Origin: Brachycybe producta
Taxonomy: Eukaryota; Arthropoda; Diplopoda; Playtdesmida; Andrognathidae
Reading direction: 5' to 3'
NCBI GenBank assembly: GCA_036925085.1
Contig: JAUPFP010000008.1
Span: 2,143,957 to 2,207,956, forward strand
DNA: 64,000 nucleotides
Under the pieces are notes generated by a model. That model was not told where the DNA came from. It was given only the letters and a program-made list of their open reading frames with translations, and made no database searches. Of the stretch, positions 47,300 to 49,454 are shown in pieces. The first letter of the stretch is position 1. Each line of letters starts with the position of its first letter. The position numbers were made by a program, and so were the translations under genes.

Positions 47300-49454
47300 A
47301 TGTCACGATATTCAAGACCTCCTAACACTTCTCTTTACGTTCGCAACGTTCCAGATGGTACCAGGTACATTTAACTATTATTTTCAGTTTGTTTTTTTCG
47401 TTGAATGTTTTTCGTTAGGAATCTCTAAAGATAGACAAAGCGGGAAGACCGCGTTGCAGTTTTGAAGTTAGGTATTTAGATTGAAAGGTGTTCCAATATG
47501 GCGTTTTTTCTATTGAATTGTATTCTTATAAAGTCGCCATATTTGTTTACCTGTTCTAGTTTTTTTTAAAGAGATTTTAGGTCACACACTGCTTCATTTC
47601 GTCTTTATTGGAAGGTTGGTCTATGCTTTTTTGTGTTTCGTATTGGCGCCATTATGGTATATTTTGCCGGTTACGCATATCAATGAGCTTTTTTAGTTAC
47701 TGGTTATTTTGGAGATACATATAAACACGTTGTGGATATTCTTTCGATTTGAAGCCGCTTTGGCGTAGCCTGTATAAAGGCTTACTATATATGACAAATA
47801 GGCCCTACATGCTATGCAGAAGAATGTACAGGAATTTTTTTTTGGCTGATTTCGCGCCTTCGGTGCAAACCTATGTAACAACTCTGCAGTCTTACCTTGG
47901 CGGCTAGCGGCAGCTAATCGAAAGAATGCCCTAAAAGGTATATTTTTGAAAGTTGTGGCCCATTTAATTAAAAAAATTAATCTGCAATGGAAACGATTTT
48001 TATTATTTTTTTTTTCAATCTGTTGACACTGAGCGGTATTTTTGGGGTTCTTTTCTTGTCGTTTTCTTATTTTGTATATCCCGAATACAGACAAGATGAA
48101 CTGAGGAGTTTGTTTGGTAAATACGGACCGATAAGTGACGTTTACGTTCCCTTGGATTACTACACACGGAGACCTCGAGGCTTTGCTTACATTCAATATC
48201 CTTCGCCTACGTCATCTCGACGTCGTTTAACGTTTTATTTTCATTTCAGATCGAGGCTTTATTCCTTTATCGCTGATTTTTTTTTTTATTATTTTCTAAC
48301 TCGAATCTTCTCCTTTTTGTTTTATTGTGTGTATAGAGATAAAAAGACAAAGACAAAGAGGCAGAGAGAGAGAGAGAGAAAGAAAGAGTTTAAAAGAACC
48401 AATTTTTGGGGTTTCGGGATAAAGAGATTGGGTTTAAAGAAATTATAAGGTCTCTAAAGATGGGTCAAGGGCCGCAAAACGGACACTTGTTCATCTCAAG
48501 AAAGAGAACGCAAAAAGGGTCAAAGAAAGAAAGAAAAGAACAAAGAGAACGAAAGAAAAGAACAAAGAGAAAGAAAGTGAAGAGACGAAAAGAGTTCGGC
48601 TTTCAAGACCTTCCAAGTCTTCGTTAAAATTTTCACATCTCCTAGAGATCCTTTAAAGAGAAAGAAAAGTAAAAAGAAACCACAAAACCAAAAAAATGCT
48701 CTGCCTCCGTAAGATCTTTCGTTTTTCATGGTTTTAATTCGTTTTTGGCTTTTGGTTTGGATTTTTTTGGGGGGTTTTGTTGCTATTTCCTATGTTATCT
48801 TTCCTCTTTCCTATTTTCACCTCCTTGGCCTTAACTGGGCTTACATTTGAAGACGTTCGAGATGCAGAAGATGCGATGTACAATTTGGACAGAAGTTGGT
48901 TTCATGGCCGTGAGCTCGAGATTCAGTTTGCACAGGGTGATCGAAAGAGTAAGTGCAAAAAGTTGGAATCGTTGTTTCGTAATTAGCTTACAAAATTGTT
49001 CCTAAAGCTCCAAATGAAATGAGAACGAAGGAACGGACCCGTTCACCACCAAGCAGCAGTAGATATGGAAGTCGTCGGCGTCGTTCCAGAAGCCGATCTT
49101 CAAGGTCTTTTTTTTTCCAGAGAAAGTTTCAAAATTCGTTTCTAATCTCAAATGTCTTTTTTTAATGTTTGTTTAGGAGGCGAAGTCGTAGATCTTACAG
49201 TAGATCGAGATCCCGTTCTCGTTCAAGGTCTAGAGGACGTCGTCGTAGCAGCACTCCGAGACGGTTGGAAATACTCGCCATGTAACTGGGTTTGGTTAAT
49301 TAGTTTTCATTAATTTCACAGCTCTAGGTCCAGATCTCGCTCTTCGGATTACAAGTCACGACGGAAATCAACGAAGGATCGTTCCCGCGATAGAGATGGA
49401 TCTGCACACGACAGTGGACGGGAATCAGACAGGAAGAGCCGCTCTCGAGACTGA
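47300..49454 (+). CDS. SRSF10: SRSF10-type SR splicing factor (6 exons, one AT-AC intron)
   Basis: Nuclear serine/arginine-rich splicing regulator, 196 aa. Exons: 47300-47364, 48091-48195, 48845-48948, 49008-49104, 49177-49263, 49322-49454. One RRM (about residues 10-85): RNP2 LYVRNV, then [23 protein letters not shown]1 [25 protein letters not shown] and IQFAQGDRK, almost identical to vertebrate SRSF10/SRSF12. The rest is an RS domain with [10 protein letters not shown] runs, ending DRKSRSRD. The RS tail is shorter than in vertebrate full-length SRSF10. The junction between exons 2 and 3 works only with an AT-AC intron, 48196-48844. The intron before it holds a MITE. AATAAA or ATTAAA candidates for the 3' end lie at 49750 and 49963. 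Confidence 0.93.
47733..47931. repeat. MITE family G, copy 2 (SRSF10 intron 1)
   Basis: Left ggatattctttcgatttgaa and inverted right gggcattctttcgattagct form terminal inverted repeats. 199 bp. The same left terminus occurs at 8655. Confidence 0.65.
48196..48844 (+). other. U12-type AT-AC intron of the SRSF10 gene
   Basis: The donor ATATCCTT (48196-48203) fits the minor-spliceosome consensus. The branch-site-like CCTTAAC is at 48829-48835, about 10 bases before the acceptor TTAC ending at 48844. No GT or AG at these points restores the conserved reading; the AT-AC junction gives exactly the family sequence YIQFEDVRD. 649 bp. Confidence 0.9.
48337..48708 (+). other. Candidate alternative purine-rich exon inside the AT-AC intron
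   Basis: A pyrimidine-rich tract and tgtgtatag give a good major-type acceptor before 48337, and CTCC|GTAAGA gives a good donor after 48708. Between them is a strongly purine-rich sequence (gagagagagaaagaaagag type) typical of splicing-enhancer arrays. Any reading frame entered here meets stops, so inclusion would truncate the RRM. This is a prediction from sequence only. Confidence 0.45.

Follow-up and report, generated by a model that had tools for sequence, protein, structure and literature searches.

An AT-AC intron in an arthropod SRSF10 gene and a candidate nested exon that may act as a feedback switch

In mouse and human, the Srsf10 gene controls its own expression through a choice between two spliceosomes. 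The minor donor of exon 2 gives the coding mRNA, while a major donor located downstream of it is used together with exon 3, which brings in a stop and a poly(A) site (Meinke et al. 2020, eLife 9:e56075, PMC7244321). This autoregulation has been demonstrated experimentally: SRSF10 activates exon 3 via a GA-rich enhancer at nucleotides 17-60, and exon 3 also holds a rarely used minor donor (PMC7244321). The vertebrate precedent invoked by the original prediction, an autoregulated minor intron of Srsf10 with an internal exon, is thus a real one in mouse and human (PMC7244321). According to Meinke et al., no SR protein other than Srsf10 has a minor intron (PMC7244321). Among the 18 human twintrons of one published table (PMC3564746, accessible text), SRSF10 does not appear, and no description of such a switch outside mammals was found in the open-licence literature, which was sampled in part.

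Two further systems are relevant to this comparison. The Drosophila prospero twintron yields two protein products, and homologues of hnRNP A1 take part in its regulation (PMC8329584, PMC3584512). In SNRNP48 and RNPC3, the splicing enhancer that binds the U11 snRNP consists of the donor sequence repeated in tandem (PMC8329584). With respect to the protein itself, the accessible parts of a comparative survey place the SRSF10 (SRp38) clade in no surveyed species other than bony vertebrates; the survey considers the clade probably lost in insects, yet calls it bilaterian (PMC3173450).

The window, i.e., the whole 64,000-nucleotide stretch of DNA analysed here, contains an intact arthropod gene that we take to be SRSF10 (SRp38). 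The gene, like all the features of its second intron described below, lies on the + strand. Its coding region runs from ATG to TGA at 47300..49454 and comprises exons 47300-47364, 48091-48195, 48845-48948, 49008-49104, 49177-49263 and 49322-49454, the donor of the last intron being tentative; the joined reading of 196 residues stays open to one stop. The first 104 residues hold the one RRM of the product (Pfam RRM_1, 8.5e-22), which is followed by ...QGDRKTPNEM... and then by RS repeats, so that the single SRSF10-like RRM and the RS domain of an SRSF10 orthologue are both present. Of the first 100 residues, 77 are identical to human SRSF10, and the identity to SRSF2 from the same genome is 41/81. 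When the genome was searched with the 104-residue start of the protein, 11 matches were obtained, corresponding to exons 2, 3 and 1 of the gene itself, an SRSF2 exon (49% identity) and seven weaker matches (26-46%). A search of solved structures with the protein returned SRSF2 and other RRMs among the best 60 of 302 matches; one entry carries the old label 'splicing factor 10', which we take to be Tra2.

Several other features of the window and of the genome can be recorded here. Upstream of SRSF10, an inverted repeat at 46443-46650 consists of two 94-base arms, 88% complementary and 20 bases apart, and looks like a small foldback transposon. A series of open frames at 28814-35667 resembles, by eye, adjacent animal haem peroxidase genes. 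Outside the window, the mitochondrial contig C442 reads trnI, trnM, trnC (reverse), trnW, cox1, cox2, trnK, trnD; cox1 and cox2 adjoin with no trnL between them and there is no room for nad2 between trnM and trnW, an order that looks rearranged relative to the usual one. The lack of trnL between cox1 and cox2 suggests an animal that is neither insect nor crustacean, and at least 33 matches to the cuticle family Chitin_bind_4 in the genome indicate an arthropod. Further cox1-like copies are located on large contigs (C1:12697416-12698753 and C17:4027703-4029047), one of them with an internal TAA, and are probably mitochondrial DNA inserted in the nucleus.

The second coding intron of SRSF10 spans 649 bases (48196..48844, between the last base of exon 2 at 48195 and the first base of exon 3 at 48845) and can be assigned with very little doubt to the U12-type AT-AC class. 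It begins with ATATCCTT and ends with CCTTAACTGGGCTTAC, with the terminal AC at 48843-48844. The minor donor (48196..48203) forms a nine-base pairing with the 5′ end of the genome's own U11, the last exon base counted; the U11 gene starts AUAAAGGGUAUUUG, a start judged by eye. U12-type branch sites resemble TCCTTAAC and lie about 10-16 bases before the AC end. Here CCTTAAC is read directly at 48829..48835, and its second A stands 10 bases before the final intron C (48844). Both this element near the AC acceptor and the minor donor at 48196 had been anticipated by the original prediction, and both are confirmed. In addition, the genome contains one match each to the minor snRNA genes U11 (79.4 bits), U12 (119.8), U4atac (84.8) and U6atac (116), each exceeding its Rfam cut-off. 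The donor, the branch site and the minor snRNAs expected of a U12-type AT-AC intron are therefore all present, with the donor at the junction that restores the frame.

A loose donor-plus-branch signature is not rare alone, background strand (400 kb) having 5 of them and the + strand of the window 3 others, and therefore the decisive evidence for the AT-AC intron is the reading frame. The intron splits the Q codon of the conserved YIQFEDVRD after its second base, and joining 48195 to 48845 keeps this reading. When the junction is slid around these positions, only three cuts give the same mRNA (AT..AC and its two non-canonical slides by one and two bases, TA..CA and AT..AT). No GT-AG choice keeps YIQFEDVRD, and AT-AC is the only canonical junction that does. 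That the intron is not U12-type, and that the real junctions are GT-AG ones elsewhere, is very improbable: the search for support for this reading of the SRSF10 intron returned none, no GT-AG pair preserves the conserved residues, and the donor, the branch, their spacing and the minor snRNAs all fit the U12 type. The vertebrate SRSF10 intron presumably splits the same codon. From these sequence features it appears near certain that the minor spliceosome must remove 48196-48844 to make SRSF10 protein. Elsewhere on the + strand, loose minor-intron-like combinations of donor and branch, at about chance level, are seen at 9420-9997 and from 42470 or 43428 to 43671.

An intact arthropod SRSF10 with an AT-AC intron is useful by itself, because the species in which the available text of the survey reports the clade are bony vertebrates only (PMC3173450). 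A pronounced loss of minor introns has been described in the ancestors of Pancrustacea and of Diptera, a pattern that an arthropod source outside insects and crustaceans fits (PMC10639083).

Inside the AT-AC intron, the composition changes sharply. T makes up 51% of 48196-48336 and 52% of 48709-48844, and it falls to 17%, with A at 47%, in a purine-rich block at 48337..48708. This block is preceded by AG and followed by GTAAGA, and it constitutes a candidate nested exon, marked by the split in composition; its splice sites alone are not above chance. The best three-segment split of the intron places the block at 48335-48696, so that its edges miss the proposed exon ends by 2 and 12 bases. No background piece had as high a T contrast as the intron (7520 overlapping pieces drawn from 200 kb of the genome, both strands), a comparison that favours the observed piece, given that the contrast was measured with the boundaries 48337/48708 set by the first reading. 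Of 1880 overlapping background pieces as long as the intron, 16 contain a 372-base block that is equally purine-rich.

The same block could also be a neutral GA-rich low-complexity insertion in a plain, constitutive U12-type intron, its edges, splice-site look-alikes and motif pair being coincidental. The block contains tandem low-complexity sequence at 48522-48577, and GA-rich stretches like its start are found at 93 other places in the genome (94 intron matches listed, itself included; a few of the 93 match elsewhere in the block rather than its start). A neutral insertion is therefore a serious rival, to which we assign a substantial minority of the probability. RNA folding points in the same direction, the structure of 48160-48880 being no better than that of shuffled sequences (z +1.33; of 20 shuffles, 19 were equally stable or more so). 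On the other hand, the three-part composition unmatched in the 7520 background pieces speaks against it.

The splice sites of the block were scored with approximate weight matrices. The original prediction had described a strong major-type acceptor and a GTAAGA donor around a long GA-rich stretch. The AG before an A at 48337, the GTAAGA at 48709 and the GA-rich stretch between them are all there, but 'strong' overstates the sites. Both are mediocre, with about 5 equal-or-better acceptors and about 9.7 equal-or-better donors per kb of window. Upstream of 48337 there are a distant pyrimidine tract and a TTCTAAC whose second A lies 38 bases before the exon, features to which the short acceptor matrix is blind. 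The best-scoring acceptor of the intron, TTTTCATTTCAG followed by A (score 11.2, a value equalled or exceeded by about 0.4 sites per kb), would open a longer alternative candidate exon at 48250..48708; composition favours 48337 over 48250 as the exon start. The best acceptor-donor pair of the intron is not 48337/48709 but 48250 with 48669. Even this pair is at chance level, as 245 of 500 dinucleotide-shuffled versions of the intron and 101 of 390 overlapping pieces of the window (taken from both strands) scored at least as well, which counts in favour of a neutral insertion. Taking composition and splice sites together, a nested exon is plausible.

A feature that specifically connects the candidate exon to SRSF10 is found at its 5′ edge. 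There, at 48343..48357 (nucleotides 7-21 of the candidate exon), the SRSF10 consensus AAAGACAAA stands twice, in exact copies that overlap. In a review table, the motifs given for SRSF10 are AAAGACAAA and [A/T/G]GA[A/G][A/G][A/G] (PMC9022966); AAAGACAAA was chosen after the sequence had been seen. The pair represents the only copies in the window on both strands, while a shuffled window averages 2.9, and therefore what matters is where the copies lie and not how many there are. A second strongly purine-rich block of the window, the long GA repeat at 61125-61640, is without AAAGACAAA.

The joint 15-mer AAAGACAAAGACAAA occurs 22 times in 295.3 Mb of the genome (9 forward and 13 reverse, own copy included), and its pattern read backwards 47 times; the expectation for the 15-mer in 372 sense bases is about 1.4e-5. 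Among 5000 dinucleotide-based shuffles of the block, 457 (about 9%) contained at least one AAAGACAAA, 18 contained two and 3 contained the 15-mer. A single AAAGACAAA is unremarkable in such purine-rich DNA, as a neutral insertion would have it; the rarity of the 15-mer, both in the genome and in the shuffles (3/5000), argues against that reading, as does the fact that the motif belongs to the very protein that the gene encodes. Of 35 other purine-rich blocks, 3 have one AAAGACAAA and none has the 15-mer; 7 of these blocks come from 20 background loci and 28 from seven GA-matched loci, four of which overlap, so that they are not independent.

Comparison with the review table covered 26 patterns, leaving aside 'CA-rich' (SRSF3), CUG (SRSF5) and repeat entries of a pattern given for several proteins. 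The purine motifs of other SR proteins, GAAGAA, GGAGGA, GAAGGA and AAGAAG, do not occur in the block (shuffled versions average 2.4, 0.3, 0.9 and 2.6, respectively). The second SRSF10 motif, [ATG]GA[AG][AG][AG], occurs 23 times in the block against a shuffle mean of 24.1, a number reached by 2141 of 3000 shuffles. This second motif is not enriched beyond composition. As sequence, an SRSF10-type purine-rich element, the AAAGACAAA pair followed by GA repeats, is present at the start of the candidate exon. Whether 48337-48708 is a nested SRSF10-responsive exon is, on this sequence evidence, a question on which we would put about even chances.

Entry into such an exon would require a major-type donor. 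Inside exon 2, TTTG followed by GTAAAT is present at 48117 (48117..48122), as had been noted for this exon, and constitutes a possible competing major donor upstream of the minor donor. Its score of 5.85 is within the range of the gene's own donors (6.41, 7.45, 2.43 and 2.24), and GTAAAT here also simply encodes FGKY. No GT with a positive score was found from 48136 to 48326, and so none just downstream of the minor donor; major splicing would need either 48117 or the skipping of exon 2. An early stop results in all the joins considered, namely 48116 to 48337 or to 48250 and exon 1 to either of them with exon 2 skipped, as well as upon intron retention. In the 48116-48337 join the stop falls at 48420-48422, about 285 bases before 48708, which would be far enough upstream to trigger decay if the candidate exon is spliced onward. 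Separately, the exon 2 frame stays open past the minor donor for 253 intron bases up to a stop at 48446-48448 (48091-48448), so that intron retention would add a long tail rich in arginine and lysine to the reading.

Neither AATAAA nor ATTAAA is found in the intron 48196-48844. AGTAAA, a weak variant of the poly(A) signal, is located at 48668..48673 with T-rich DNA after it; among the hexamers tried, the only other candidate for a poly(A) end of the mouse kind is GATAAA, at 48338 and 48418. The only candidate for a minor 5′ splice site within the candidate exon is ATCCTTTA (48648..48655), a minor-donor-like sequence that has G as its second intron base where T would be needed (AGATCCTTT) and that is found at 0.005 per kb of background and 3 times on the + strand of the window. 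As a possible U11 decoy, ATCCTTTA pairs with the genome's U11 at -8.2 kcal/mol, compared with -8.7 for the real donor with its exon context. This idea was discarded as not discriminating, another stretch of the candidate exon reaching -9.2 and 1.7% of sampled background 14-mers reaching -8.

The block may also be an intronic purine-rich control element and not an exon, with SRSF10 or an hnRNP tuning removal of the minor intron, so that regulation would proceed by retention. The nearest arthropod precedent, the prospero twintron, supports this reading by analogy, as its purine-rich element balances minor and major splicing (PMC8329584); moreover, purine-rich enhancers act on AT-AC splicing in work cited in PMC3584512. 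The early stop reached by the retained intron and the weak splice sites of the candidate exon are also in its favour. The sharp T-rich/T-poor edges near AG and GT, however, look exon-like and not diffuse, and we regard an intronic element as unlikely.

The reading that we develop further is that of a feedback switch of SRSF10 built differently from the mammalian one. SRSF10 would bind the tandem AAAGACAAA at the start of the T-poor block and, once bound, would activate the U2-type acceptor at 48337 (or 48250). In this way the transcript would be diverted to the major spliceosome, either from the donor at 48117 or from exon 1 with exon 2 skipped. The mRNA of the major path would carry an early stop, and its predicted fate would lead SRSF10 to lower its own output. 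Judged from the sequence features, such a switch seems to us as probable as improbable.

Compared with the mammalian Srsf10 switch (PMC7244321), the arthropod locus involves the same gene, its coding mRNA likewise arises by removal of an AT-AC intron, an SRSF10-type element rich in purines lies near the start of an exon-like block and the predicted major products end early. The two differ in that the mammalian major donor is downstream of the minor donor of exon 2, whereas 48117 is upstream and none is found downstream; in that the minor donor of mammalian exon 3 has no working arthropod counterpart, only AGATCCTTT; and in that a poly(A) site closes mammalian exon 3, the corresponding arthropod signal being doubtful, at best the weak variant. 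Furthermore, the mammalian autoregulation has been shown experimentally, while the arthropod one is predicted from sequence. The AT-AC coding intron and the early stop of a mammalian-type switch are found, but the downstream major donor and the nested minor donor are not. We therefore do not file the arthropod gene as a member of that class, although it may work like one. The original prediction of an autoregulatory toggle in an invertebrate thus gains specific support from the AAAGACAAA pair close to where the candidate exon starts, but the mammalian geometry is not reproduced.

The locus also resembles the prospero twintron, as described in the available text, in that an arthropod AT-AC intron of the U12 type is combined with a nested intron of the U2 type, here a candidate one, and with a purine-rich putative control element; unlike in prospero, early stops are predicted for the candidate products, and the motif belongs to SRSF10 (PMC8329584, PMC3584512). 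As in the SNRNP48 and RNPC3 enhancer, a minor-donor-like sequence follows a U2-type acceptor, here a candidate one, but here it is a single imperfect copy whose pairing with U11 is not discriminating (PMC8329584). Finally, the proposed negative feedback through stop-containing sequence in its own transcript recalls the poison exons of other SR genes, which do not pit two spliceosomes against each other (PMC7244321).

If the SRSF10 feedback switch operates in this arthropod, its origin would be ancient, we infer. In this tentative scenario, which we hold to be possible but on balance doubtful, the feedback switch between minor and major splicing predates the arthropod/vertebrate split. The protein, the AT-AC intron and the self-binding element would have been kept, while the competing donor would have moved, lying downstream in mammals and here either upstream (48117) or replaced by exon 2 skipping. 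Scans of viral and genome contig collections with the 104-residue SRSF10 protein gave 7 and 36 pattern-matching stretches, respectively, none of them confirmed; these collections are not animal genomes and are uninformative on conservation. Why minor introns persist is an open question, and the minor intron of SRSF10 acting as a feedback valve since before arthropods and vertebrates split would, if true, provide a concrete answer. General splicing activity would then be tied to the levels of the minor spliceosome in animals beyond mammals.
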